Shown here: positions 9,527 to 40,714 of the stretch, in pieces
Layout: the number at the start of each line of letters is the position of its first letter
Numbering within the stretch: position 1 is the stretch's first letter
NCBI GenBank assembly: GCA_028280105.1
Contig: JANQML010000085.1
Span: 1 to 42,384, forward strand
Length of the DNA stretch: 42,384 nt
Direction of reading: 5' to 3'
DNA from: Desulfobacula sp.
GTDB taxonomy: Bacteria; Desulfobacterota; Desulfobacteria; Desulfobacterales; Desulfobacteraceae
Notes under the pieces: generated by a model
Seen by the model: only the letters and a program-made list of their open reading frames with translations
Told to the model about the DNA's origin: nothing
Database searches by the model: none
Translations under genes and position numbers: made by a program

Positions 9527-10804
9527 ATGGCATTATCGTTTTTGAAGGCAGAAAAACAGAAAACCGCCGCTGATTTAGAGAATGTTCAAAAAGCTGTAAA
9601 AGAGATTATAAAAAAAGTAAAAGCAGAAGGGAACGCTGGATTAGCTTACTATCAAAAGAAATTCGACAGCCATACCCCGGGCAGTTTTCGCGTGACGCCG
9701 GAAGTGGCCGCAAAAGCGAAAGAATCTCTTCCCGGTGAGGTTGTGGAAGAACTCGATTTTGCTATCGAACAGGTAACGGCCTTTGCCCAGGCCCAAAAAG
9801 ATTGCTTCAGCTCACTGGAAACGGAGATTCAGCCGGGCATGAAGATGGGGCATCGTGTCATCCCTGTAGATGCCTGTGGGTGCTATATCCCGGCGGGGCG
9901 GTATCCTTGCCTGACCGCTGCTGTCATGTCCATTGCTCCGGCCAAGGTTGCGGGTGTCAAACGGATTGTTGCTGTAAGCCCTCCTGGAGCAATGGGAGAG
10001 ATTCATCCGGGGATTCTTTATACGATCCACGCACTTGGCTGTAATGAAATTTATTGTATGGGCGGTGCACAGGCAATCGCCGCCATGGCGTATGGGACAG
10101 AGACCATAAAACCCGTTGATCTGATTGTTGGGCCGGGGAATCAGTTTGTGGCAGAAGCGAAACGCCAGGTGTACGGAAGAGTTGGCATTGATTTTATTGC
10201 AGGGCCGAGCGAGGTGCTTGTCATTGCGGATGAGTCTGCGAAGGCCGACTGGGTTGCCGCCGACCTGCTGGCACAGGCTGAGCATGATCCAAATGCAAGA
10301 GCCTGCCTGGTTACAACTAGCAGGGCGCTTGCTGAAGAGGCGATGGGGCAAATTGAGCTTCAGCTTAAAGAAAGGTCCACAGAGGAGGTCGCCCGCGCCT
10401 CATGGGTTGACAATGGAATTGTTGCTTTAGTCGATACAATTGAAGAAGCCGTTGAATATACAAATAAATATGCTCCTGAACATTTGGAGATTCACACAGC
10501 AGCACCCCGCAAAGTCCTGAACGGATGCCGTCATTATGGTTCTGCCTTTTTAGGAGAAGATACAGCGGAAGTCTATGCGGATAAAATCGCCGGCCCCAAT
10601 CATACATTGCCCACATCAGGGGTGGCAAGGTACAGCGGCGGGCTCTGGGTCGGTATGTACATGAAGGTGCAGACCCATATGGAAACGGACCGAGAAGCCA
10701 GCATAAAACTTGCCCGATATTCAGAAATCCAGGGTAAATTCGAGGGAATGGATGCCCATCGTTACGCAGCAGCAATCCGGTTAAAAGACTATTTGAAAGA
10801 ATAG
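9527..10804 (+). CDS. Histidinol-dehydrogenase-family NAD-dependent alcohol dehydrogenase (HpsN-like)
   Basis: A 425-residue protein covering the whole HisD fold. Zn ligands expected from E. coli HisD (Gln259, His262, Asp360, His419) are present as Gln250, His253, Asp352 and His411, and the catalytic Glu-His pair as Glu318-His319 in APEHLE. VGPGNQFVAEAKR and AGPSEV are also conserved. The family oxidises a primary alcohol to a carboxylate in two NAD+ steps. The context (LacI operator, TRAP transporter, no his genes) argues for catabolism. The segment GPNHTLPTSGVARYSGGLWV is shared by HisD and by the sulfopropanediol dehydrogenase HpsN, which also occurs with TRAP transporters; dihydroxypropanesulfonate is therefore one candidate substrate, not proven. 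AGGAG lies eight bases before the ATG. Confidence 0.8.
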   Translation: MALSFLKAEKQKTAADLENVQKAVKEIIKKVKAEGNAGLAYYQKKFDSHTPGSFRVTPEVAAKAKESLPGEVVEELDFAIEQVTAFAQAQKDCFSSLETEIQPGMKMGHRVIPVDACGCYIPAGRYPCLTAAVMSIAPAKVAGVKRIVAVSPPGAMGEIHPGILYTIHALGCNEIYCMGGAQAIAAMAYGTETIKPVDLIVGPGNQFVAEAKRQVYGRVGIDFIAGPSEVLVIADESAKADWVAADLLAQAEHDPNARACLVTTSRALAEEAMGQIELQLKERSTEEVARASWVDNGIVALVDTIEEAVEYTNKYAPEHLEIHTAAPRKVLNGCRHYGSAFLGEDTAEVYADKIAGPNHTLPTSGVARYSGGLWVGMYMKVQTHMETDREASIKLARYSEIQGKFEGMDAHRYAAAIRLKDYLKE

Positions 10805-10879
10805 CGAGCCGGAGTCTGGACAGCAGGTCAACTGTATTAAAGGTCAACTGTATTAATTTTTAAGTTTTAGGAGGGAAAA

Positions 10880-11923
10880 ATGATTAAATCTTTCAAACTG
10901 CATCTTAGGAACGTTACAGGTTTCTCAATTCTGTTACTGCTGATTATCTTGATGCTGGTACCCGTATCTGTGGCAGCCAAAACGTATCACCTGAAGATCG
11001 GTTGTTTAGAATCGCCTGACGGCCCCAATACACTGGGTTGGAAGACCTTTGAACAATATGTTGAGTCTGCCAGTGGTGGCCGGATTAATGTGGATATCTA
11101 TCCCTCAAGCCAATTGGGGGATTCTGAAAAGTTGCTTGAAGGCCTTAAGTTAGGTATTCATAAAATGGCTCAAGGGGACGAATCAATCACTGGTGCATAC
11201 GATCCTATGATGATCTGGTTCACCCCGTATTTGTTTCAAGATGAGTTCGTAATGAAGAAGTTTTTCGAAAGCAGGACATTCGAAGAGCTGAGCAATATGA
11301 TGGCCAAAGATCTGGGCGTACGCCCCCTTGGTGTGGCCCCTTATGGATTTTATAATTTTATCAATAAAAAACGGGCTGTTCACCGCATTGAAGATCTTGA
11401 TGGATTGAAATTGAGAACACTTCCAAACAGTCAGCTGACTATCAAAACCTGGGAGGCTTTAGGTGCCGCGGCTACGCCGGTTTCCTGGGCAGAAATTTAT
11501 ACGGCAATTAAAACCGGAGTTATTGACGGATTAGGCCACACGCTGACGATTATGGTTGACCAGAGATATTATGAAGTGGCGAAGAATGTAACGCTCGACA
11601 TGAGTATGGGGTGCGCAAATCTTTACCTGATCAATGAAAAATTCTATCAATCATTGCCAAAGGATTTACAGATGGTTCTCAAAAAGGGTTCACAGATGGC
11701 CGCGGCTACGGAGTTTGGTATCGCAACCTACCGCAACCGTGTTGTTTCCATCGATACACTGAAAAATAATGGTGTTAAGGTCGTATCCTTAAGCGCGGCT
11801 GAAAAAGCACGATTGAAAAAAGCCGCTCATGATGCCGTAATGCCGTGGATAACGGAAAAAGTTGGAGAAAAAATGGCTGCCCAAGTCCTGGAAACCATCG
11901 CTGCCATTGAAGCCGGAATGTAG
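10880..11923 (+). CDS. TRAP transporter periplasmic substrate-binding protein (DctP family)
   Basis: A 347-residue protein with a signal peptide ending near VAA|KTYHLK at about residue 34. The mature part matches the DctP/TRAP binding-protein family: WKTFEQYVESASGGRINVDIYPSSQLG, then LDGLKLRTLPNSQLTIKTWEALGAAATPVSWAE. The usual carboxylate-binding Arg is expected in the LKLRTLPN motif (about Arg175), so the ligand is probably an organic acid or sulfonate. It is the second gene of the LacI-controlled operon, 75 bases after the hisD-like gene, with a strong AGGAGG site. A hairpin after the gene probably makes binding protein more abundant than the membrane subunits, as is common in TRAP operons. 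Confidence 0.9.
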   Translation: MIKSFKLHLRNVTGFSILLLLIILMLVPVSVAAKTYHLKIGCLESPDGPNTLGWKTFEQYVESASGGRINVDIYPSSQLGDSEKLLEGLKLGIHKMAQGDESITGAYDPMMIWFTPYLFQDEFVMKKFFESRTFEELSNMMAKDLGVRPLGVAPYGFYNFINKKRAVHRIEDLDGLKLRTLPNSQLTIKTWEALGAAATPVSWAEIYTAIKTGVIDGLGHTLTIMVDQRYYEVAKNVTLDMSMGCANLYLINEKFYQSLPKDLQMVLKKGSQMAAATEFGIATYRNRVVSIDTLKNNGVKVVSLSAAEKARLKKAAHDAVMPWITEKVGEKMAAQVLETIAAIEAGM

Positions 11924-11967
11924 TTAGTTGGCCAGGTCATCCAGATGGTGGATATGCCAGAAGAGAC

Positions 11968-12002
11968 CCCCCTGTCGGTGCCTTGCAGACACCGACAGGG
12001 GG
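11968..12002 (+). terminator. Hairpin between dctP and dctQ (attenuator or mRNA stabiliser)
   Basis: CCCCCTGTCGGTG (11968-11980) pairs perfectly with CACCGACAGGGGG (11990-12002), giving a 13-bp stem and 9-base loop followed by CTTTATT. The weak T-rich tail suggests partial termination or 3' protection of the dctP message, not a complete stop. Confidence 0.7.
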
Positions 12003-12067
12003 CTTTATTCCAAAATATGAGGCGGAACAACTGAAGTGTTTGCTTTGTCTCCAACAAAAAACATCTT

Positions 12068-12562
12068 ATGAAAAAAATAACAACCGTTCTGGATCATCTC
12101 ATCCGAGTCGTCATTATATTGGCAACCGCTGGAATGCTGGGCGTCATCTGTCTGCAGATCTTTTGTCGTTTTATATTGAACGATGCACTTTCATGGCCGG
12201 AAGAGGCTGCCCGGTTTCTAATGATATGGTCGCTGTTTTTGGCCGGCGGGTACGCTTTGAAAGATCGTGAACATATTGGACTCACTTTTTTCGCAAATCG
12301 CCTTCCAGAAAGGATAAGAGCCTTTATGACCGTTATCCTCCATCTTTTTATAATTGGATTTCTATGTGTTGTCGTCATTGGCGGATGTCAGGAAGTCATC
12401 AGCCTGATGCCGCTTAAAACAGGCGCTTTGCGGATATCTCGAGCAGTGCCTTATCTTATCATGCCTATCAGCGGCGTGTTTTATATCGCTGTATCGGCAC
12501 GGCTTTTAATCGAAGATTTGAGGCTTATCATCAAAGATAATCCTGGCGTGAGGTCCAAATGA
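12068..12562 (+). CDS. TRAP transporter small permease subunit (DctQ family)
   Basis: A 164-residue membrane protein with four predicted helices (about 11-30, 50-68, 88-110 and 128-148) and the DctQ-family signature FCRFILNDALSWPEEAARFLMIWS. It forms the small membrane partner of DctM in a sodium- or proton-driven TRAP transporter. No clear ribosome-binding site precedes the ATG, which may fit lower expression than DctP. Its last codon overlaps the dctM start (ATGA), indicating translational coupling. Confidence 0.88.
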   Translation: MKKITTVLDHLIRVVIILATAGMLGVICLQIFCRFILNDALSWPEEAARFLMIWSLFLAGGYALKDREHIGLTFFANRLPERIRAFMTVILHLFIIGFLCVVVIGGCQEVISLMPLKTGALRISRAVPYLIMPISGVFYIAVSARLLIEDLRLIIKDNPGVRSK

Positions 12563-13842
12563 CACTTGCAATTTTAATCATATCCTTTGTCCTGTTTATT
12601 CTCATGGGGATGCCCATAGCATTTGCAATAGGTATCTCCTCATTGTTTGCACTGATGACCCAGGATGTGCCGCTGATTCTTATATCCCATTATATGTTTT
12701 CGGGTGTTGATTCATTTATTCTCTGCGCTATTCCAATGTTTGTGCTGGCCGGAGAGATTATGCTTCATGGGGGCATGACAAAATCATTGACTGATTTTTC
12801 TGATGTGTTAGTCGGTAAAATCAGAGGGGGACTGGGTCATACGAACATTATGGCCAGTACTTTTTTCGCCGGTATCACCGGTTCGGCAACAGCTGATACG
12901 ACTGCCATTGGTTCCATTCTAATTCCTGCCATGTCCGGAAAAGGCTACAGCCGAGCATACAGCACGGCAATAACCATTGCATCATCGGTAATAGGACCGA
13001 TAATTCCCCCGAGTTTGACTTTTGTTATATATGCGCTTGCCGTGGGCAACGTATCTATCGGCGGGCTGTTTTTAGCCGGTATTATTCCCGGAATTCTCAC
13101 CGGTATTGGACTGATGACGATTAATTATGTCATAAGCCGGAAACGAAATTATGAAAAAAGAACCGAACCTTATGCTTGGAGTGATATTTTAAAAATTGTC
13201 AAACAAAGTGCTATCGTTCTGATTATGCCACTGCTAATCGTTGTCGGCGTGATCAGCGGTGCATATACTGCAACGGAATCGGCAGCGGCGGCGTCAGCTT
13301 ATGCCCTTATTGTATGCATGGTTCTTTTTCGCAGTTTAAAGCTCTCCGATCTAAAGAAAATTTTTTTTAACAGTGCCAAAGTAAGTTCTATCATGTTTTT
13401 GTTATTGGCAACCAGCAATCTGTTCAGCTATGTTTTGGCAACGGAAAACGTTCCTGCCTTTATGGCTGATCTATTGCACGGTGTGACGGAAAATCCGCTG
13501 ATATTTTTATTGTTTCTTAATGTAATGCTTTTGTTGATTGGCTGCGTTGTCGATCTCTTTCCGGCAATTTTCATTTTTGGACCTATTTTTGCGCCGGTGG
13601 CAGCTTCATATGGTATTTCACCACTTCACTTCGGGCTTATATTTTGTGTCAACCTTTTAGTCGGTTTGAATACCCCGCCGGTTGGATCCGGCCTTTTTAT
13701 CGGTGCTGCAATCGGTAATGTGAAATTGGAAGAACTGATCAAAGAAGTCACGCCGTTTATCATAATGGAGTTCGTCATCCTTTTACTCATTACCTATATT
13801 CCGTTTATAACAACATTTGTTCCATCATTAGCCGGTTTTTGA
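12559..13842 (+). CDS. TRAP transporter large permease subunit (DctM family)
   Basis: A 427-residue protein with about twelve hydrophobic helices. Family features are GITGSATADTTAIGSILIPAM in the first half, the IGPIIPPSLTFVIYA loop, and FCVNLLVGLNTPPVGSGLF near the C terminus. It is the transport channel of the TRAP system, working with the DctP and DctQ proteins encoded just upstream. Length and ends agree with the family. AGGT in the end of dctQ serves as ribosome-binding site. The gene ends within 35 bases of the ISAs1-type transposase remnant on the opposite strand. Confidence 0.9.
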   Translation: MTLAILIISFVLFILMGMPIAFAIGISSLFALMTQDVPLILISHYMFSGVDSFILCAIPMFVLAGEIMLHGGMTKSLTDFSDVLVGKIRGGLGHTNIMASTFFAGITGSATADTTAIGSILIPAMSGKGYSRAYSTAITIASSVIGPIIPPSLTFVIYALAVGNVSIGGLFLAGIIPGILTGIGLMTINYVISRKRNYEKRTEPYAWSDILKIVKQSAIVLIMPLLIVVGVISGAYTATESAAAASAYALIVCMVLFRSLKLSDLKKIFFNSAKVSSIMFLLLATSNLFSYVLATENVPAFMADLLHGVTENPLIFLLFLNVMLLLIGCVVDLFPAIFIFGPIFAPVAASYGISPLHFGLIFCVNLLVGLNTPPVGSGLFIGAAIGNVKLEELIKEVTPFIIMEFVILLLITYIPFITTFVPSLAGF

Positions 13843-31351: not shown

Positions 31352-32971
31352 TTAATCCCTGTTATCAAGGATATCCAGAATGATTCTGCACTGGTTTTCA
31401 GCCCGTTCCACCAAAGCGCGGGCCTTTGCCATGGTCGTTTCTTTATACGCCTGATCCGTGATATCCGCCATGTTGATACAGACGTTTTTATAGGCGCCCC
31501 AGATTCCGGTTTCAAGCGCTTTTACCCCCACTTCAACATCAGACTTTGATGCCATATTGCCGTATTGTGCCACCCCTTTGAAGGCCTCCCAGGCAGAATC
31601 GGCCCGGGTCATGACAGAGAGGGGAATATCAATGGCTGTTTTTAATCCGTCCTCCATTTTTTCGGCCCGGAACCGTTTTTCTCCCTCTGTTGTCCGGGGA
31701 AGTCCCAATGCCTTGACATAGTCTTTAAAGGCATCGGTGTCAGCATCAATCATACTGATAAGCTCGTGGGCGGTGTGGTGGAGCGGCGGCACCAGCTGCC
31801 GCATCTTTTCATCCACGGCCTCAAACTTGCGAACCCCCAGGGTCAGTTTGGCCACCATGGCGCCCAACCCTGCCCCCATGGCCGCAATGGCCGCCGATGT
31901 GGCCCCCCCGCCGGGGGCGGAACTCCGGGCGGCAACTTCCTCAATAAAGTTTCTGACGCTCATTGAGGCAAGGGGCTCATCCTTTGGCTTTGCCACAATA
32001 TACTCGATAATCTTCTGGTCCGGATCAAACCGTGAGATCGAGTTCAATCCCAGCCGCTCAACCGCAAGCCGGATCTTCTGGTCCTCTTCCAGGACAAAGA
32101 GTGATTCTTTTTCAATATAGTATTCCGCGGCCATGAGCATGGATTCAAGCGGCACAAGACCGACGATTTCCGAACCGATCACCGCCACCTTCAGTTTTTT
32201 TGCCTCCTCTTTGACGGATTCAAAAAGCAGGTGAATCGGTGTGGTCTTGAAATCGGTGAGATTCACCGTAACCTGGGCCAGGTTATGTTCGTCCACGTAC
32301 CAGCCCATGCCTTTGACCTCCGGGTGTTTTCCGGGATCTTCCGGACCTCTTCCCGCCTCTCTTAAATTCAGGGCGATCCGGTGGGCCTGATTGGGTGTGG
32401 AAAGCAGATTCACGTTATAGGCGATCAAAAAAGACCGGGCACCGGTGACCGTGGCTCCCCAGGCGGCAATAAATTCTGCCGGTCCAAAGTCGGGTTTCCA
32501 TTCCGGGGTGATGATTCGTTCGCCCAATCCTTCGTACTCACCGTCACGGATCTGCGGCAGGGTTTTCCGGTATTCACGGTCCTGGGAATTTTCGTAGAGA
32601 TAGACAGGCACGCCCAGTTCCCTGCCCGCCCGTTCGCCGAATCTCTTTGAAACAGCCACACACTCATCCATGGTCACGTTGGCCACCGGGATAAAGGGGC
32701 AGACATCCATGGCACCCATCCGGTGGTGCTCTCCCTTATGCTCGGCCATATTGATCTTTTCTTTTGCCACCCGGGCCGCATTGACCGCGCCGTCTACAAC
32801 CGCATCCGGTGATCCCACAAACGTGTAAACCGTCCGGTTTGTGGATTCACCCGGATCCACGTCCAGCAGATCACACCCGGGTGTCTGCCGGATGGCTTCT
32901 GCTATGGCTTCTATGGTCTCTTTGTTTCTGCCTTCACTGAAATTGGGTACACACTCGACTATCTTTTCCAT
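31352..32971 (-). CDS. ftcD: Bifunctional glutamate formimidoyltransferase/formimidoyl-THF cyclodeaminase
   Basis: A 539-residue fusion. The N-terminal formimidoyltransferase domain (1-about 325) starts MEKIVECVPNFSEGRNKETI and carries the His-rich region AEHKGEHHRMGAMDVCPF, which contains the catalytic His of the family. The cyclodeaminase domain (about 340-539) contains RSSAPGGGATSAAIAAMGAGL. The enzyme moves the formimino group of N-formimidoylglutamate (a histidine breakdown product) to tetrahydrofolate and then releases ammonia, giving 5,10-methenyl-THF. Length matches the fused animal-type enzyme (about 541); many bacteria use separate proteins. No hut genes are nearby, so it may mainly feed one-carbon units to folate. 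Confidence 0.95.
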   Translation of the reverse strand: MEKIVECVPNFSEGRNKETIEAIAEAIRQTPGCDLLDVDPGESTNRTVYTFVGSPDAVVDGAVNAARVAKEKINMAEHKGEHHRMGAMDVCPFIPVANVTMDECVAVSKRFGERAGRELGVPVYLYENSQDREYRKTLPQIRDGEYEGLGERIITPEWKPDFGPAEFIAAWGATVTGARSFLIAYNVNLLSTPNQAHRIALNLREAGRGPEDPGKHPEVKGMGWYVDEHNLAQVTVNLTDFKTTPIHLLFESVKEEAKKLKVAVIGSEIVGLVPLESMLMAAEYYIEKESLFVLEEDQKIRLAVERLGLNSISRFDPDQKIIEYIVAKPKDEPLASMSVRNFIEEVAARSSAPGGGATSAAIAAMGAGLGAMVAKLTLGVRKFEAVDEKMRQLVPPLHHTAHELISMIDADTDAFKDYVKALGLPRTTEGEKRFRAEKMEDGLKTAIDIPLSVMTRADSAWEAFKGVAQYGNMASKSDVEVGVKALETGIWGAYKNVCINMADITDQAYKETTMAKARALVERAENQCRIILDILDNRD

Positions 32972-33170: not shown

Positions 33171-34718
33171 TCAGGTGGTTTTCAACAGACTGGGAAACCG
33201 GGACCGGTCCGTGTGAGGATAAAATTTGGCACCTGAAAACATGTTCATAAAGTCCTGGTTGACATTTAACTCCATATAGGTAATCGACCTTCTGATATTT
33301 AAAATCCGGTCAAATACCTGCGGGTCACTGAGAAACAGGATGGCGCCGCCCAGGGATGAATTGCCAAGCACCCTAAAGGTGTCAACCGGAATATCCGGCA
33401 GCATGCCGATGGATATGGCGGATACGGGATCAATGAACGACCCGAACGTTCCTGCCACGTAAAACCGGTCCAGATCTCCAAACGCCAATCCTGCCGTCTG
33501 GGTTACGATCACTTCCAGAATCGTGTACATGGCCGCTTTCGAACTGGTCAGGGAGTTTAAATCCACCTGGCTCAAACAGATCGGTTCCCCGGTGCCGGAC
33601 TGCTCTGCATCCACCAGCCTGAACAGCATATCTCCATTCTCTTCATACAATTGACTGCCGCAGCCTTCTGTTGAAAATTTTCCCCGGATATCCATACGGC
33701 CGGAGAGAAAAAGGGCGGCTGCCAGGTCAATCATTCCGGATCCGCAGATACCGATGGGCGGTTTTTCGCCAATGGTGTGAACGGCAAGGCGGTTTGAGAC
33801 AGGATCGACCGTCACCCGGTCAATGACACCGGGTCGGGCCGTCATTCCCATCTTGCTCATCCCGCCTTCAAGGGCCGGTCCGGCCGCCCCGGCACAGGCA
33901 ATGAGCCACTCCCGGCTGCCCACCACAATTTCCGCATTGGTCCCCACATCCACCATGACGGCGGGCCGTTCCCGCTGATCCAGGTCAGAATAGAGGATTC
34001 CGGAAATCAGATCCCCGCCAAAGTAGGCCCCGATATTGGGAAATAGAAAGACCTGTCCGCGGACGTTGATGTTCAGTCCCAGTTCAACCGCAGCAACCGT
34101 ATCCAGAATATTCATGCACGGGATATAGGGTTCTTTTATCATCTGGAACGCCTCTATTCCCGCAAACAGGTGGGTCATGGCGGTATTTCCCGCCCCGCTG
34201 ACCGCATAGACATCCCCGGTGGACCGGCCATGGTTCCGGCACAACCGGCCGATCTCCCTGTTCACCCCTTGAATGACAAGATCCTGAAGTTGCTTGAGTC
34301 CACCGGGCTGATTGGAATGGTGGATTCTGGCCAGCACATCCGGGCCAATGGCGGCCTGGGGATTGTCAAACCCGGTTTCACCCAGCACCTGGCCGGTTTC
34401 AAGATCCACCAGGGCCATGGCAATCCGTGTGGTGCCGATATCAATGGCGATGCCGAGAACGGAAGACGGCGTGTCAGGGTCCAGTAAATCCAGCAAAAAC
34501 CAGGAATGGCAGTCTTTGAACAGAACGGCTTTTGCCTTAAAGTTCCAATTGCGCAGATCAGACGGCAACCGCTTCATCACGGTCAAGGGAATTCGGACCC
34601 GCCCGGTGTCCAGTTCAACTTTTAAACATGCTTCCAGCCGCTGAACATCTGCCGTGTTATTATTCAAATCCGGCCGATCCACCCGGATGGACCGGACAAA
34701 GCCGTTTTTCAACATCAC
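33171..34718 (-). CDS. ASKHA-type ATPase lacking a ferredoxin domain (RACE paralogue, DUF4445)
   Basis: A 515-residue protein with the same ATPase core as its neighbour. Phosphate-loop motifs are IAIDIGTTRIAMALVDL, SGAGNTAMTHLFAGI and VMVDVGTNAEIVVGS; the C-terminal RACE (DUF4445) region includes GICGSGMIDLAAALF and FYVAGTFGSFIDP. Unlike typical activators of corrinoid enzymes it has no N-terminal 2Fe-2S domain: the first 95 residues are a short linker-like domain without a Cys cluster. Its start overlaps the end of the 645-residue paralogue by four bases, so the two are made together and may form a heteromer with one electron-carrying and one regulatory ATPase subunit. Function is inferred. 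Confidence 0.85.
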   Translation of the reverse strand: MMLKNGFVRSIRVDRPDLNNNTADVQRLEACLKVELDTGRVRIPLTVMKRLPSDLRNWNFKAKAVLFKDCHSWFLLDLLDPDTPSSVLGIAIDIGTTRIAMALVDLETGQVLGETGFDNPQAAIGPDVLARIHHSNQPGGLKQLQDLVIQGVNREIGRLCRNHGRSTGDVYAVSGAGNTAMTHLFAGIEAFQMIKEPYIPCMNILDTVAAVELGLNINVRGQVFLFPNIGAYFGGDLISGILYSDLDQRERPAVMVDVGTNAEIVVGSREWLIACAGAAGPALEGGMSKMGMTARPGVIDRVTVDPVSNRLAVHTIGEKPPIGICGSGMIDLAAALFLSGRMDIRGKFSTEGCGSQLYEENGDMLFRLVDAEQSGTGEPICLSQVDLNSLTSSKAAMYTILEVIVTQTAGLAFGDLDRFYVAGTFGSFIDPVSAISIGMLPDIPVDTFRVLGNSSLGGAILFLSDPQVFDRILNIRRSITYMELNVNQDFMNMFSGAKFYPHTDRSRFPSLLKTT

Positions 34719-36652
34719 CTGTGCAGCAGCTCCAATCGTTTTTTTACCTTTGGAAAATAATTAAGCTCGGTATGGGGTAAAAACAGGGCACTCATATAAT
34801 GATCCATATAGGACGGGGTGGAGGCCAGCTCAAAGTTGGTCATCATATTCACCACATTTGCCACGTCCCTGCGAAATGCATTGGTCAGGGTATTGATTTT
34901 ACATCCGAGCAACGACCCGTTCCCCAGGTAGATCACCCGTCCCGGGTCAATCTCGGGCAAAAGTCCGATGGTAATGGCGCTTTCCAGATCGACATAACTG
35001 CCGAACCCGCCGGCCAGAATAATCTTTTCAATATCCTGAACCCCCAGGCCGATCTCATCCAGAAGCGTCAGGGCCGCACTGTACATGGCCCCCTTTGCCC
35101 GGATCAGGTTATCCAGATCCGGCTCGGTAATGGTGATGTCCCGGTCAATTCCGGCCTCTTTCTCATAGACCAGGACATATTCCCAGATATCTTCGGTTTG
35201 ACGAATCCTCTGGGTCTCAAGGGACCGGTTGAATTTTCCCCGGGAATCGATAATACCGGTGTCCAGCAACCGGGCCGCCAGGGTAATCAATCCGGACCCG
35301 CAGATTCCCTTGGCCTTTTCATCGTCAACCGTCACAATCATGGGTTCAAAGGTCTCCGGGTTGATGGAGACATCCTCAATGGCACCTTTGATCGCCCGCA
35401 TGCCGAATTTGACCCCCCCGCCTTCAAAGGCCGGTCCTGCCGAAGCAGCGGTGCAGACCATCCAGTCTTTATGGCCGATGACAATCTCCGCATTGGTACC
35501 GATATCCATATAGAGTGTCAGCTCTTCAGACCGGTACATGCCGGCAGCCATGATACCGGCAATGATATCCCCGCCCACATAGCTTGATACACCGGGATAG
35601 ATCAGCGCAATGGAATGTTCCGCAAGCTCGATACCGATCTCTTTTGCATGGAACGGCGGGTAGAGGATGGAGGCCGGTACATAGGGATCTTTTCTGATAT
35701 AGGTCGGGTTGATATTCAAAAGAAGCTGGGTCATGGTGGAATTTCCCGCCAGCGTGATCGTGGTCACCTCTTTCTTACTCACACCCGCTTTTTTTAATAT
35801 CTTTTTAATAATGGTGTTAATGGTCCCCACCACTTTGGATTGAAGGGTGGCAAGCCCCTCGCCTTTTTCGGCAAAAATAATCCGGGAGATCACGTCTTCG
35901 CCGTAGCTGATCTGGCTGTTAAAATCACCCTGCTGGGCCGGTACCGCACCGGTATGAAGATCGATGACCATGCCGTAAACGGTTGTCGTACCGACATCCA
36001 CTGCAATCCCGAAATTTCTTTCCGAAGTGTTATTGGGCTCAATATTGACAATCTCATTTTTTCCGTCTTTTCTCACCGGCCGGACAATGGTTGCCGTGAC
36101 CTTGAAATCGCCCTCCCGGATCAGATTCGGAATTTTCCGGATCAAATCCAGGTTCATGGTCAACCGGTGCTCGTCATGTTTCAGGCGCAGATAGTTGATG
36201 ATCCGCGTCACATCTGCCTGATTATCTCCCTCCACTGCCGGATCCAGTTCAAGATATATCTTTTCCACGGGCGGAATAAAGAGGCCGTCCTCGCGCAGTT
36301 CATCCACGTTTGAATAAACGGCCTTGGCCATATGGCGGCCCGTGACCCGGGCATTGAGCCGGCCGGCATCCATCTGGGATTCCATCGGGACCCGTATCAC
36401 ACAATCCGATGCAATCCGGGCCACACAGGCCAGCCGGTACCCTTTTTCCCTGTCCGCTTCAGACAAATGCTCGGAAATACCGCCTTCAACCTGTCCGGTT
36501 TCCACAAGGATCCGGCACTTCCCGCAGACACCGGTCCCGCCGCAGGAGGCATTAATATGGACGCCGGCTTCCATGGCCGTGCGAATCAGACTCTGGTTGG
36601 GTTCAGCATCTACAGTTCTGTTATGAGGGAGAAATGTTATTGAATGTGTCAT
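34715..36652 (-). CDS. RACE-type reductive activator of corrinoid enzymes (2Fe-2S/ASKHA ATPase)
   Basis: A 645-residue protein. An N-terminal plant-type 2Fe-2S ferredoxin domain has Cys37, Cys43, Cys46 and Cys76 (INASCGGTGVCGKCRI). A linker region (about 90-210) leads to the ASKHA ATPase with VDVGTTTVYGMVIDL, ITLAGNSTMTQLL, YMDIGTNAEIVIGHKD and the C-terminal DUF4445 block with IILAGGFGSYVDLESAI. The family uses ATP to drive single-electron reduction of Co(II) corrinoid proteins back to Co(I) in methyl-transfer systems. No corrinoid protein or methyltransferase is in this window, so the partner is unknown. It is the first gene of a two-gene operon divergent from glcD. Confidence 0.88.
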   Translation of the reverse strand: MTHSITFLPHNRTVDAEPNQSLIRTAMEAGVHINASCGGTGVCGKCRILVETGQVEGGISEHLSEADREKGYRLACVARIASDCVIRVPMESQMDAGRLNARVTGRHMAKAVYSNVDELREDGLFIPPVEKIYLELDPAVEGDNQADVTRIINYLRLKHDEHRLTMNLDLIRKIPNLIREGDFKVTATIVRPVRKDGKNEIVNIEPNNTSERNFGIAVDVGTTTVYGMVIDLHTGAVPAQQGDFNSQISYGEDVISRIIFAEKGEGLATLQSKVVGTINTIIKKILKKAGVSKKEVTTITLAGNSTMTQLLLNINPTYIRKDPYVPASILYPPFHAKEIGIELAEHSIALIYPGVSSYVGGDIIAGIMAAGMYRSEELTLYMDIGTNAEIVIGHKDWMVCTAASAGPAFEGGGVKFGMRAIKGAIEDVSINPETFEPMIVTVDDEKAKGICGSGLITLAARLLDTGIIDSRGKFNRSLETQRIRQTEDIWEYVLVYEKEAGIDRDITITEPDLDNLIRAKGAMYSAALTLLDEIGLGVQDIEKIILAGGFGSYVDLESAITIGLLPEIDPGRVIYLGNGSLLGCKINTLTNAFRRDVANVVNMMTNFELASTPSYMDHYMSALFLPHTELNYFPKVKKRLELLHR

Positions 36653-36896: not shown

Positions 36897-38330
36897 ATGA
36901 AAAAAATTGATGAAAAAGCACTGATTGATATTGTAGGCGAACGCAATATCAAAACCGATCCGTCCGATCTCTACGTTTATGGCTCGGATTCCTCTGTTCA
37001 CCATGCCATGCCTTGGGCAATCGTGAGACCGGAGAACACGGAACAGGTTCAGAAGATCATGACATACGCCAATGAGAATCTTATCCCGGTTATTACCCGG
37101 GGTGGCGGATCGGGAATGTGCGGCCAGACCGTCCCCATTCAGGGCGGGATTATTCTGGATATGAAGGGAATGAATAAAATACTGGAGATCAATCTTGAAG
37201 ATGTCTACTGCCGGGTTCAGCCCGGTGTTGTGGATGACGATCTCAATCTGGCGCTCAAACCGTACGGTGTCTTTTATCCGCCCACACCGGCCTCCAGCCG
37301 GATTGCCACCATCGGCGGTGAAATCGGCAACAATGCCAGCGGGGTGCGGTCGGTGAAATACGGTGCCACACGGGATGCGGTTTTAGGGATGAAAGTCGTT
37401 CTTCCCAACGGAGACCTGGCCTCTCTGGGTGCCCATACCCGGGTTGAAGCCTCGGGATACCAACTGCACAAACTCATGGTCGGCTCCGAAGGCACCCTGG
37501 GGGTTGTGGTTGAAGCCACCCTGAGTTTTGTTCCCATTCCGGAGTTCAGATGTATGGGGGTGTCCAATTTCAATTCCCTGAAAGATGCGGGCGAAGCCAT
37601 CGGAGCGATTATGGCATCGGGTGCCACCCCGTCCATGCTGGAACTTGTGGACTCCGTGGCCATCAAAGCCGTAAATAAAACCATGGACCTGGGTCTCAAA
37701 GAGGTTGCCGCGGCCTTGATATTTGAAGCCGACGGCATGGTCAAGGAGGCGGTTGACTATGAAATCGAAAAAATGAAAAAAGTCTGCCTGCAGCATCGTG
37801 GAGAAGATATTTATTCAAGCTATGATCCCAAAGAGCGGGCCAAAATATTTTTGGGCCGCAAAAAACTCTTCCCTGCCCTGTCAAAATATGATGATAACCT
37901 TGCCAGTACGTCTCTTGCCGATGACATGGCTGTCCCGTATTCAAAAATGGCGGAAATGGCAGGCAAAATCCATGAAATCGCCAAAGCCAATGATATTGTC
38001 ATGACCGCTTACGGCCATTGCGGGTCCGGCTGCATGCACACGAAAATATTAATGGATACCAAACGCAAAGACCAGTGGGCGTCTGCCAAAAAGGCGATCA
38101 CCCAGGTCTATGACTATGTCCGGTCGGTTAACGGTACCACCAGCGCAGAGCACGGAATCGGGCTGTCCAAAGCCGAATCCTTTAAAGAAGAAAAATCAGA
38201 TTCCCTGGTGGTGCTTTCGGCGATCAAAAAGGCACTGGATCCCAACAATATCCTCAATCCGGGAAAGCTGATGCAGGCACCGGAAGACTGGGTAACCGCT
38301 ACCAATCTGAGATATTCCGTGAACAGTTAG
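36897..38330 (+). CDS. FAD-linked 2-hydroxyacid dehydrogenase (GlcD/D-lactate dehydrogenase family)
   Basis: A 477-residue flavoprotein of the GlcD/DLD family. The PP-loop ITRGGGSGMCGQTVP and the IGGEIGNNASGVRSVKYG block form the FAD-binding domain (about 35-215); the C-terminal substrate domain has AYGHCGSGCMHTKIL and TTSAEHGIGLSKAE, with the His residues of the family active site. It should oxidise D-lactate, glycolate or a related 2-hydroxyacid to the oxoacid. The electron acceptor is probably the FeS/MvhD protein encoded next. LarA two genes down points to lactate or a lactate-like acid. A run of seven G provides the ribosome-binding site. Confidence 0.9.
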   Translation: MKKIDEKALIDIVGERNIKTDPSDLYVYGSDSSVHHAMPWAIVRPENTEQVQKIMTYANENLIPVITRGGGSGMCGQTVPIQGGIILDMKGMNKILEINLEDVYCRVQPGVVDDDLNLALKPYGVFYPPTPASSRIATIGGEIGNNASGVRSVKYGATRDAVLGMKVVLPNGDLASLGAHTRVEASGYQLHKLMVGSEGTLGVVVEATLSFVPIPEFRCMGVSNFNSLKDAGEAIGAIMASGATPSMLELVDSVAIKAVNKTMDLGLKEVAAALIFEADGMVKEAVDYEIEKMKKVCLQHRGEDIYSSYDPKERAKIFLGRKKLFPALSKYDDNLASTSLADDMAVPYSKMAEMAGKIHEIAKANDIVMTAYGHCGSGCMHTKILMDTKRKDQWASAKKAITQVYDYVRSVNGTTSAEHGIGLSKAESFKEEKSDSLVVLSAIKKALDPNNILNPGKLMQAPEDWVTATNLRYSVNS

Positions 38331-38444
38331 GAAGCCCAGGCTATGGCCCGGTCGTGTCTGCCGTTTCACCACCACCCGGCATGGCAGACCGGTTCGAAAA
38401 ATCTTTGGATTTTTTCATTTACAAAATTTAGAAGGATGAATCCT

Positions 38445-39392
38445 ATGGAAAATAAAACAAAAGAATTCAAACATCTTGAAAAATGGCACGGAACACTGGC
38501 AAGCTGTATTCGTTGCGGATACTGTTTCGAACACTGCGCGCTGTTCAAACATTCCGGATGGGAATCAGATACCCCGCGGGCCAAAATAATCACGGCATTC
38601 GGCCTCTTATCCGGGGAGATCGAACCCACGGAAGCGGCGGCTGACAAGCTCTACTCCTGTTTTTATTGTAAACGGTGTGAAGCGGCCTGCTCATCGGGTG
38701 TGAATTTAACCGAAATCTTTACGGACGCAAAGAAAGACCTCATGAAAATAGGGCTGAAAGGTCCGGGAACCACATCCCTTACCAAGCTCAGTTGCGCCCG
38801 GTGTCTCATCTGTACCGGTGCCTGCCCCCATGAGGCGCGCTCCCATGACGGAAAGAACATCGTCACAGATCCCACCAAATGCCAGGCCTGCGGGATCTGC
38901 CTTGAGGTCTGCCCGGCAGGGGCTGCGACCATTGAAAAGACGTTCGGTACCGGCAGAGACGAACTGGTTGCCAAAGCCACTGATTTTTTGAACTCCCACA
39001 AAGCCGCCAATGCCATTGTGTTTGCCTGTAACTGGTCCTATTTCCCGGAACTCCAGGCCTCTGAACTGCCGGATTCGGAGATCGAAGACAAGAGCTATGA
39101 AATTCTCGTTAACATGTGCGGCGGCCGTCTCGAAGCACAGACCTTGATGGCACCGTTTCTTCACAAGGCCTGGGGAGTGATGACAGCGGTCTGCCCGGAT
39201 GATGAATGCCAGCACAACGGTAACTTAAAGGCAAAAAAGATCATTCAAACCCTGAAACAAACCTTTGAAAAAATCGATATTGATCCGGAAAGAATCCGGA
39301 TGGTTCAGATTCCGGCCGGTGACAAGGATCTTTTTCAGGCAGAGATCGACACTTTTGTTGATGATCTCAACAAGATGGGTCCCATTCGCTAA
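38445..39392 (+). CDS. Four-cluster ferredoxin fused to an MvhD domain
   Basis: A 315-residue protein. Four Cys quartets are visible: SCIRCGYCFEHC, SCFYCKRCEAAC, SCARCLICTGAC and KCQACGICLEVC, each able to hold a 4Fe-4S cluster; the first two follow the HdrC/GlcF-like pattern. The C-terminal 135 residues resemble MvhD, the subunit linking hydrogenase to heterodisulfide reductase HdrA (FACNWSY, NMCGGRLE, CPDDECQHNGN), although the second Cys of the usual CNWC is Ser. It should take electrons from the flavoprotein and may hand them to an HdrA-type complex. ATG 38445 is chosen because AAGG lies nine bases upstream; the longer frame to 38343 is unlike the family. Confidence 0.85.
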   Translation: MENKTKEFKHLEKWHGTLASCIRCGYCFEHCALFKHSGWESDTPRAKIITAFGLLSGEIEPTEAAADKLYSCFYCKRCEAACSSGVNLTEIFTDAKKDLMKIGLKGPGTTSLTKLSCARCLICTGACPHEARSHDGKNIVTDPTKCQACGICLEVCPAGAATIEKTFGTGRDELVAKATDFLNSHKAANAIVFACNWSYFPELQASELPDSEIEDKSYEILVNMCGGRLEAQTLMAPFLHKAWGVMTAVCPDDECQHNGNLKAKKIIQTLKQTFEKIDIDPERIRMVQIPAGDKDLFQAEIDTFVDDLNKMGPIR

Positions 39393-39403
39393 AGGAGACG
39401 GAT

Positions 39404-40648
39404 ATGAAGATTGATCTACCCTATGGAAAAGAGGACCGGATATCGGTTACAATGGACGAGGACGTATCTGTTTCCTTTCTTGAAGCCAATGATGTTGAAA
39501 TCGGTGACGAGGATGCAAATATAAAGGCGGCCATCGAATCCCCGATTAACAGCAAAAGTTTTAAGGCGTTTCTAAGTGATGCCGGAAAAGTACTGGTCAT
39601 CGTCAATGACGCCACGCGGCCCACACCGACCCAAAAGATCCTTGGGTTTATCTTTGATGATCTCAAAGAGACCGATTATAATTTCATCATTGCCACAGGC
39701 GCCCACAGAGGCCCGTCCGAGGAAGAGTATGCTCAAATATTCGGCTCCTTTTACGACCAGGTTAAAGAGAGGATTATTGTCCATGACGCCAGGAAATCCG
39801 AGGACATGGTCTTTCTGGGCAACTCCTCAAACGGGACACCCATGCACGTAAACAAAGCCGGGGTTGAAGCCGATAAAATCATTATTATCTCCTCGGTGGA
39901 GCCCCATTATTTCGCCGGCTATACCGGCGGCAGAAAATCCTTCCTGCCCGGAATCGCCGGCTATGAAACCATTGAGGCCAACCACAAGCTGGCACTTGCC
40001 CCGGAAGCCCGTGCACTGGCACTGGACGGCAACCCGGTCCATGAGGACATGGTCGATGCCATCAAAACCGTTAAACAGGAGATCTTCTCCATCATGACGG
40101 TTTTAGACAAACATCACAGGGTGTATGCCACCTGCTGCGGCCACATCAATGACTCGTTTCATGCCGCCATCGATCAGGCCAACGAAGTATTTGCCGCCCC
40201 TCTGGATAAAAAGGCGGATATCGTGGTTTCCGTTGTTAAATTTCCCCAGGATATTGACCTGTACCAGGCTCAGAAAGGAATCGACAATGCCAAACTGGCA
40301 CTGAAAGAAGACGGGATCATGATCCTTGTGGCCAAGTGCCGGTGCGGTATCGGCGGTAAAGCCTTTGCCGATCTGCTGGGCGCCAGCAATACCCCCCAGG
40401 GTGCCCTGGACACCATTGAGAAAGGCTATGTCCTGGGATATCACAAGGCGGCAAAAATGGCGGAAATTGGCCTGTGGGCCCAAATGTGGGCGGTAACCGA
40501 CGTGGAACCGGATGTGATATCCAGACTGTTCATTACCCCATATGGCGATCTGCAAACGGCCCTGGATGCCGCATTAAAAGAAAAAGGAAAAGATGCAGAT
40601 CTCCTTTTCCTCATGGACGGCGGCCTGACGGTTCCCATGGTCGATTAA
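39404..40648 (+). CDS. larA: LarA-family nickel-pincer-dependent 2-hydroxyacid racemase
   Basis: A 414-residue protein. Catalytic and cofactor residues of Lactobacillus plantarum LarA align with constant spacing: His101 (His108, in ATGAHRGPSEEE), His168 (His174, in SSVEPHYFAGYTGG), Lys178 (Lys184, covalent cofactor link) and His194 (His200, nickel ligand). NDATRPTP is the other family signature. LarA racemises lactate or epimerises related 2-hydroxyacids with a covalently bound nickel-pincer nucleotide made by LarB, LarC and LarE, none of which is in this window. Third gene of the operon, 11 bases after the FeS/MvhD gene, with AAGGAG. It would supply the isomer used by the flavoprotein. Confidence 0.9.
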   Translation: MKIDLPYGKEDRISVTMDEDVSVSFLEANDVEIGDEDANIKAAIESPINSKSFKAFLSDAGKVLVIVNDATRPTPTQKILGFIFDDLKETDYNFIIATGAHRGPSEEEYAQIFGSFYDQVKERIIVHDARKSEDMVFLGNSSNGTPMHVNKAGVEADKIIIISSVEPHYFAGYTGGRKSFLPGIAGYETIEANHKLALAPEARALALDGNPVHEDMVDAIKTVKQEIFSIMTVLDKHHRVYATCCGHINDSFHAAIDQANEVFAAPLDKKADIVVSVVKFPQDIDLYQAQKGIDNAKLALKEDGIMILVAKCRCGIGGKAFADLLGASNTPQGALDTIEKGYVLGYHKAAKMAEIGLWAQMWAVTDVEPDVISRLFITPYGDLQTALDAALKEKGKDADLLFLMDGGLTVPMVD

Positions 40649-40671
40649 TCCGGTTCTCTTAATTCTTTTAA

Positions 40672-40714
40672 AAAAAGGCACCTGATCCATCTGTGTCGGA
40701 TCAGGTGCCTTTTT
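40672..40714 (+). terminator. Rho-independent terminator after larA
   Basis: AAAAAGGCACCTGATCC (40672-40688) pairs perfectly with GGATCAGGTGCCTTTTT (40698-40714), a 17-bp stem around a 9-base loop whose right arm ends in a T-run. It closes the glcD-FeS/MvhD-larA operon. Confidence 0.92.

Follow-up and report, generated by a model that had tools for sequence, protein, structure and literature searches.

A conserved racemase–flavoprotein–FeS/MvhD operon of Desulfobacteraceae as a candidate NAD-independent malate dehydrogenase

The contig JANQML010000085.1 of a Desulfobacula sp. assembly (GCA_028280105.1), a stretch of 42,384 nucleotides referred to in its entirety as the window, contains an operon that encodes a GlcD-type flavoprotein, a chimera of iron–sulfur (FeS) and MvhD domains and a homologue of LarA, in this order and all on the + strand, followed by a terminator. 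On balance, we lean towards the view that this module oxidizes malate and replaces malate dehydrogenase. Its components are:

36897..38330, + strand: GlcD-type flavin adenine dinucleotide (FAD) 2-hydroxyacid dehydrogenase, 477 amino acids; proposed D-malate dehydrogenase (Pfam, motif and PDB matches).
38445..39392, + strand: FeS/MvhD chimera, 315 amino acids, with a GlcF-like dicluster, a ferredoxin-like dicluster and an MvhD domain; proposed electron outlet of GlcD (domain searches, structure comparison, cysteine conservation).
39404..40648, + strand: LarA homologue, 414 amino acids; proposed malate racemase (Lar_N/LarA_C, best NCBIfam match LarAH6, conserved motifs).
40677..40714, + strand: terminator with a perfect 12-bp stem, a 9-base loop and 5 T (inverted repeat).

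As proposed here, the operon would encode a two-step malate dehydrogenase independent of nicotinamide adenine dinucleotide (NAD). LarA, with its nickel-pincer cofactor, would racemize L-malate, the product of fumarase, to D-malate; GlcD would oxidize the latter to oxaloacetate on its FAD; and the electrons would enter FeS/MvhD, passing its GlcF-like diclusters, ferredoxin domain and [2Fe-2S] MvhD domain. From there they may reach an HdrA-type complex (HdrA or a Qmo-like HdrA pair), possibly shared with the MetVF methylene-tetrahydrofolate reductase, and in many Desulfobacteraceae the module would stand in for the ordinary malate dehydrogenase. A wider claim, which we put forward only tentatively, is that this would be a third, unrelated kind of malate dehydrogenase, working via D-malate, feeding HdrA/Qmo-type bifurcating complexes, avoiding NAD and coupled to sulfate respiration and methyl-tetrahydrofolate oxidation within the Desulfobacter citric acid cycle.

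The window is contig 115 of a 413-contig, 5.9-Mb genome with an estimated completeness of 98% and contamination of 6.5%; the closest named relatives of its FeS/MvhD come from Desulfobacula metagenome-assembled genomes (77-80% identity), with one metagenome-assembled genome outside these at 81%, and by this similarity its source groups with Desulfobacula. Within the operon, GlcD and FeS/MvhD are separated by 114 bases, and FeS/MvhD and LarA by 11. The open reading frame of FeS/MvhD opens at 38343, its preferred start being the ATG at 38445, which by eye is preceded by a ribosome-site-like AGAAGG. Downstream of LarA, the arms of the inverted repeat (40677-40688 and 40698-40709) run into TTTTT ending at 40714; a consensus terminator scan limited to loops of up to 8 bases recovered this site only as a 6-pair version, and its 5 terminator-like sites represent no excess over a shuffle mean of 6.1. 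Taken with the conservation described below, these features indicate that GlcD-FeS/MvhD-LarA is a real operon with its own terminator, as stated in the original prediction, whose parts list also holds: Pfam domains and residues identify LarA, a FAD hydroxyacid dehydrogenase and a four-cluster FeS protein fused to MvhD.

Comparison extended to 86 genomes of the family, 42 of which are good (>=90% complete, <=5% contaminated); genomes, loci and contigs are cited by G, L and C numbers. Out of 65 named loci, L129-L133 (weak matches, no operon) were left out, and 52 of the remaining 60 have the three genes in intact order, occasionally with one gene split into at least two pieces (L087, L094, L116, L121); seven are truncated by contig ends and one (L123) is rearranged. 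Because so many loci keep it, this order is far beyond chance. Orthologues of FeS/MvhD (called at E <= 1e-30) occur in 69/86 family genomes and 40/42 good ones, and among 242 sampled genomes from across the order the module is present in 9/10 family members and 0/232 others (E <= 1e-50). Distant copies belong, by record title, to Syntrophorhabdaceae, Myxococcota, Desulfarculaceae and unclassified Deltaproteobacteria; among 13 viral pattern matches there was no relative. Across the 45 loci with three full-length proteins, pairwise identities correlate at 0.95 for GlcD and FeS/MvhD, 0.84 for GlcD and LarA and 0.79 for FeS/MvhD and LarA. The Desulfobacter-type LarA (L099, L102, L104, L154) is 49-58% identical to that of the other loci shown, GlcD of the same loci reaching 66-79%, a pattern that would result if the original LarA had been exchanged for a different one; its specificity signature is nonetheless that of the other module LarA proteins.

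LarA matches Lar_N (186 bits) and LarA_C (60 bits) over their Pfam cut-offs, and alignment locates all seven cofactor and catalytic positions, D69, R72, H101, H168, K178, H194 and K291 (equivalent to D72, R75, H108, H174, K184, H200 and K298), which are invariant in 54/54 full-length orthologues. These residues place the protein in the nickel-pincer racemase superfamily, to which the original prediction also assigned it; the cofactor-synthesis gene LarC is present on C367 of the window genome and in 75/86 family genomes. According to a passage of PMC7583248, specificity depends on four positions: the two that follow the catalytic His, the one that precedes the catalytic Lys, and one in helix 14. 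Lactate racemase has Phe, Phe, Val and Trp at these positions; the malate racemase Mar2 has Tyr, Lys, Gln and Lys, the last of which, in the view of that paper, probably binds the second carboxylate. The corresponding Tyr169, Phe170, Gln290 and Lys348 are identical in all 54 orthologues, as are the motifs SVEPHYF, YQ[AS]QK and G[YF]HKA; three match Tyr172, Gln293 and Lys351 of Mar2, and Phe170 stands at the position of its Lys173. The best NCBIfam model is LarAH6 malate racemase (370 bits, cut-off 500), ahead of lactate racemase (283 bits, cut-off 460), and LarAH6 also scores higher for the LarA of Desulfobacter and L122, with 370 and 381 bits for two relatives.

GlcD is composed of FAD_binding_4 and FAD-oxidase_C domains, scores 386 bits against the glycolate oxidase equivalog TIGR00387, below its cut-off of 568, and has the motif GHCG[SA]G[CV][MI]HTKI in 56/56 full-length orthologues. 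Its best PDB matches are glycolate oxidase (9qgz) and LctD (7qh2); together with the lactate-racemase-like Phe170, the match to the lactate racemase model and a level pairwise search in which the structure of that enzyme comes slightly before Mar2 (199 versus 196 bits), they would suit lactate, the substrate originally considered, so that LarA and GlcD would oxidize D-/L-lactate or similar monocarboxylic hydroxyacids and FeS/MvhD would feed an HdrA complex. We regard this as improbable in view of the higher LarAH6 scores, of the Lys348 and Gln290 that replace Trp and Val of lactate racemase in 54/54 orthologues, of a genomic slot, described below, that holds an NAD-malate dehydrogenase and no lactate enzyme, and of the presence of the operon in Desulfobacter, which are known mainly as acetate users. 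Malate or a near dicarboxylate is, by these residues and matches, the probable substrate; that Lys383 of GlcD helps to bind a second carboxylate is only a guess from related structures.

L117 (Syntrophorhabdaceae) has the operon in divergent orientation to an oxaloacetate-decarboxylase-type gene, malic enzyme and TRAP dicarboxylate-transporter genes; by similarity to these, malic enzyme was recognized upstream in L110, L112 and L113, with OadA-like genes on the downstream side in L112 and L113. Excluded from this context were weak malic-enzyme-like matches (24-26%) in L070, L072, L073 and L084, a partial OadA match in L076 and many weak HdrD-like matches. No hint of the substrate came from the genes beside the operon in L125 (molybdopterin oxidoreductase, sulfur transport, rhodanese) or in L099 (aminotransferase, aldehyde dehydrogenase, regulators).

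The best single clue to function is a gene swap in G049, a 97% complete same-genus genome in about 170 contigs. No FeS/MvhD match is found in it at E <= 1e-30; instead, a TIGR01763 malate dehydrogenase (480 bits, cut-off 352) with RKPGM and GGHGD motifs sits between RACE1, the gene for a corrinoid activation protein that in the window is the divergent neighbor of GlcD, and a 4HBT thioesterase gene. In L093, RACE1 and a thioesterase 78% identical to that of G049 flank GlcD-FeS/MvhD-LarA; one NAD-malate dehydrogenase gene thus occupies the slot of the three module genes. In a quick midpoint-rooted tree with no printed support values, the G049 enzyme nests among those of other families and looks acquired; an ancestral adjacency of malate dehydrogenase and RACE was rejected, 0/20 loci of other families having RACE within about 6 kb. 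With a single draft assembly involved, the gene might be a chance insertion, uninformative on the module, but we consider this very improbable: both flanks match L093, only G049 and one other of the 42 good genomes lack FeS/MvhD, the dehydrogenase of G049 lies exactly in the slot, and none of the three LarA paralogues of G049 (157, 152 and 137 bits) attains the scores of full-length module copies in the same genus (184-198). Another module-less genome, G016 (90% complete, 7% contamination), carries a single-copy malate dehydrogenase placed elsewhere (L153).

The distribution of malate dehydrogenases in the family is consistent with a substitution of this kind. In searches that gave matches in named control genomes, malate:quinone oxidoreductase (Mqo) was found in 0/86 family genomes, Ldh_2-type enzymes in 14/86 and the Ldh_1-type malate dehydrogenase TIGR01763 in 33/86, 21 of them over the cut-off; in other families of the order, TIGR01763 is present in 209/232 genomes (181 over the cut-off). 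Counting only strong matches (E < 1e-20) to these three families, 27 of the good genomes have the module alone, 13 have both, G049 has malate dehydrogenase alone and G043 neither; the corresponding figures for all 86 are 38, 31, 6 and 11. As many as 24 of the 27 lack any TIGR01763 or Ldh_2 match at E <= 0.001, the other three (G009, G023, G024) having TIGR01763 matches that are weak or partial. For module versus TIGR01763 in the order sample, Fisher's test gives p = 0.0013, which is not independent evidence because all 9 module genomes belong to one family. Genomes with the module alone include G013 (Desulfobacter latus by matching coordinates) as well as G014 and G057, which we take to be D. 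postgatei and D. autotrophicum, respectively; G014 gives no Ldh_1, Ldh_2 or Mqo match. Independently of this analysis, a passage of PMC4969296 lists Desulfobacterium autotrophicum as being without mdh. Since the citric acid cycle is described for Desulfobacter in passages of PMC9768450 and PMC2702500, malate must be oxidized there. According to a further passage of PMC9768450, malate oxidation with NAD is unfavorable, unlike the quinone-dependent reaction, and a passage of PMC7699770 states that D. postgatei makes citrate by ATP-citrate lyase; for both reasons, an acceptor better than NAD would presumably help. As a separate observation, several family genomes carry two malate-dehydrogenase-like genes in tandem, of which the second has diverged considerably (L150:121-1967, on C338 of the window genome; L151:5462-7329).

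As for the electron outlet, FeS/MvhD contains Fer4 diclusters at residues 18-86 and 116-160, the N-terminal one resembling GlcF (E 1.7e-12), and a FlpD/MvhD domain at 191-312 (91 bits, cut-off 22.3); residues 109-314 can be aligned to the final 200 residues of HdrA2 (571-774). Sixteen cysteines for four [4Fe-4S] clusters are invariant in 26 aligned sequences, and so are four of the MvhD domain (C195, C225, C250, C255) that align with MvhD cysteines; the second Cys of the MvhD CNWC motif is Ser in 26/26. Used for its MvhD part alone, an AlphaFold model (mean pLDDT 70.5, weak over the cluster domains) best matches MvhD of solved Hdr complexes (5odc_D, TMt 0.75; 8rvu_F, 0.80; 7bkb_F, 0.76). The protein accordingly resembles an adapter that would connect a GlcD-type dehydrogenase to HdrA and, given the rest of our reading, an HdrA-type acceptor is more plausible than not.

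HdrA-type genes lie near the operon in 5/63 loci from two lineages (L108, L109, L111, L155, L123), and methylene-tetrahydrofolate reductase genes (MetV/MetF) in 10/63. A convergent HdrA(MvhD)-HdrA-MetF-MetV set is found downstream of the module in L155, L108, L109 and L111 (4.5 kb away), and MetV-MetF immediately precedes GlcD, in the same orientation, in L110, L112 and L113; LarA is followed by MetV-MetF in L118 and L122 and by MetV in L117. The rearranged locus L123 (3399-12378) has an HdrA-MvhD-GlcD-ArsR-like-HdrD-like-FeS/MvhD-VhuG-VhuA-like cluster, with no LarA within 13.6 kb, that possibly encodes a hydrogen- and hydroxyacid-linked Hdr complex. This context supports a putative Hdr-type outlet and a functional tie to methylene-tetrahydrofolate reductase. 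The malate/oxaloacetate couple lies at about -170 mV. Close to it is the methylene-tetrahydrofolate reductase couple, given as -200 mV in a passage of PMC5861303. At a contig edge in G034 (L180:2980-4736), EtfA and EtfB genes, recognized by Pfam, lie downstream of the module LarA.

With the same substrate, electrons might alternatively pass to MetVF, a quinone reductase or a soluble carrier, MvhD not being docked on HdrA. The MetV-MetF genes directly next to GlcD or LarA, the conserved Ser in CNWC, the EtfA/EtfB genes of L180 and the window genome, in which no orphan HdrA was found, would all fit such an outlet, which we nevertheless judge possible but unlikely: the four MvhD cysteines are invariant, the fold matches that of MvhD in Hdr complexes, HdrA-type genes are neighbors in the five loci named, and the L123 cluster combines HdrA, MvhD, an HdrD-like protein and VhuG/VhuA-like hydrogenase genes.

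The window genome does contain several HdrA loci. An MvhD gene is located on each of the HdrA contigs C294, C94, C117, C82 and C234, and a fused MvhD on C325 and C276; HdrA-like genes at the end of C67 and, as a second copy, at the start of C294 are truncated by contig ends. The sets comprise one with a NAD-binding FlxA-like gene (C294), two with MetV/MetF (C82, C234) and a Qmo-like one (C325, named by eye). Of the proposed Hdr link, the plausibility stands, through the MvhD fold, the HdrA2 alignment and the nearby HdrA-type genes; the predicted HdrA lacking an MvhD partner did not emerge from the readable loci. A passage of PMC2702500 describes HdrA4 of HRM2 as having no mvhD, which offers a lead in that species alone. 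Of the five stand-alone MvhD genes in the window genome, three (C94, C82 and C234; L002, L004 and L005) have an in-frame TGA, likened here to the selenocysteine MvhD genes of D. autotrophicum mentioned in a passage of PMC2702500.

A number of observations weigh against malate oxidation through this module and its link to HdrA. In the window genome, C338 carries a NAD-malate dehydrogenase gene (430 bits) that shows the expected motifs, and the module is not its sole candidate for malate oxidation; given the estimated contamination, this contig could be foreign. Both systems coexist in 13/42 good genomes, and G043 shows neither. LarA remains below every curated NCBIfam cut-off and is lactate-racemase-like at one of its four specificity residues, D-malate activity of GlcD is only proposed, from sequence, and the swap rests on one genome. 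Across the eight contigs, two genes of which are truncated, no HdrA is visibly free for FeS/MvhD, and the context loci are not independent: the seven Desulfobacterium/Desulfocicer loci with HdrA/Met context form one group, in which L108/L110, L109/L113 and L111/L112 are pairs from three genomes. A passage of PMC12137691 cites a 1983 study of Desulfobacter postgatei for a NAD-linked malate assay, and a bypass by malic enzyme and a carboxylase could operate, the family-wide dehydrogenase search having covered Mqo, Ldh_1 and Ldh_2. Finally, G040 and G054 have deleted GlcD and nearly all of FeS/MvhD, with LarA intact in place; their scars (L178:9480-9808 and L179:6273-6600, respectively) each span about 330 bases from RACE1 to LarA and retain a piece of the FeS/MvhD C-terminus. 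Within the three dehydrogenase families searched, G054 gives no match and G040 only Ldh_2 fragments; because both genomes keep LarA without an Ldh_1-type enzyme, loss is tolerated and LarA can serve apart.

Such tolerance, the malate-dehydrogenase-type genes of the window genome and of 13/13 genomes of genus g8 (Desulfotignum by matching coordinates) and the several LarA paralogues of many genomes would be expected if the module served scavenging or repair, removing D-malate, tartrate or another stray hydroxydicarboxylate outside the main carbon flux. Its near-universal presence in good genomes and the strong conservation of GlcD suit a central role instead, and both the in-place replacement by an L-malate enzyme and the 27 good genomes without another strong candidate argue in the same direction; we find scavenging slightly less credible even than lactate oxidation, and retain malate oxidation in central metabolism as the preferred reading.

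Upstream of the operon, the window contains the following neighbors:

34715..36652, - strand: RACE1, AcsV/RACo-like corrinoid activation protein; divergent neighbor (profile match).
33171..34718, - strand: RACE2, second RACo-like protein, without a [2Fe-2S] domain match (profile searches).
31352..32971, - strand: fusion of FtcD and cyclodeaminase, a tetrahydrofolate C1 enzyme (profile searches).

RACE1 best matches AcsV (657 bits, cut-off 800), and the adjacent RACo-like pair (33171-36652) stays together in many relatives. As regards the larger system shared with the operon that was once suggested, the pair is a frequent neighbor, RACE1 being upstream of the operon in 31/60 loci (26 times at a distance of up to 700 bases and 5 times at 0.9-5.4 kb), but the association is not obligatory; an essential partnership was rejected, the Desulfobacter loci L099 and L102 being without a RACE pair in the stretch examined. 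Elsewhere in the window (9527-13842), a histidinol-dehydrogenase family gene adjoins DctP and DctM TRAP transporter genes and could encode a dehydrogenase for sulfonates or polyols, the transporter serving its uptake.

If the proposal is true, a family of acetate-oxidizing sulfate reducers runs a central metabolic step via D-malate and a nickel cofactor. This would account for the lack of a recognized malate dehydrogenase in many of its genomes, give a nickel-pincer racemase a physiological role and show a hydroxyacid dehydrogenase wired to Hdr-type electron transfer. The association of LarA with oxidoreductase genes is partly known already, a passage of PMC7583248 reporting COG0247 and COG0277 oxidoreductases next to LarA homologues in 4 and 5 of 25 groups, respectively. 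In the open-access literature, outside which most subscription journals lie, no description of the operon or of a racemase-plus-flavoprotein malate dehydrogenase was found; as far as seen, the parts are of known kinds, and their combination and proposed role are new.

Among known systems, the LarAH6/Mar2 malate racemase (described in part in PMC7583248) belongs to the same family as the present LarA and shares all cofactor and catalytic residues and the Tyr, Gln and Lys of the substrate site; the protein described here differs by its score of 370 against a cut-off of 500 bits, by the Phe that replaces Lys173 in the loop and by its gene lying within a dehydrogenase operon. The GlcDEF glycolate oxidase likewise pairs a GlcD flavoprotein with a partner whose N-terminal dicluster is GlcF-like, but the operon has no GlcE, a ferredoxin-MvhD unit replaces the rest of GlcF, and GlcD is below the equivalog cut-off. 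With the electron-confurcating lactate dehydrogenase LctBCD (covered in a passage of PMC5861303) it has in common a homologous flavoprotein and a similar energetic problem, although EtfAB is absent from the operon, FeS/MvhD is in its place and a racemase is included. NAD-malate dehydrogenase and malate:quinone oxidoreductase would catalyze the same proposed net reaction, from malate to oxaloacetate; the module consists of other protein families without any NAD- or Mqo-type domain match, and would proceed through a D-malate intermediate. Lastly, in MetFV-HdrABC-MvhD and MvhADG-HdrABC (treated in a passage of PMC5861303), MvhD is the entry to HdrA, as is proposed for the module, and MetVF and HdrA genes are neighbors of the operon in some relatives; in the system described here, by contrast, MvhD is fused to four [4Fe-4S] motifs and encoded together with a hydroxyacid dehydrogenase.

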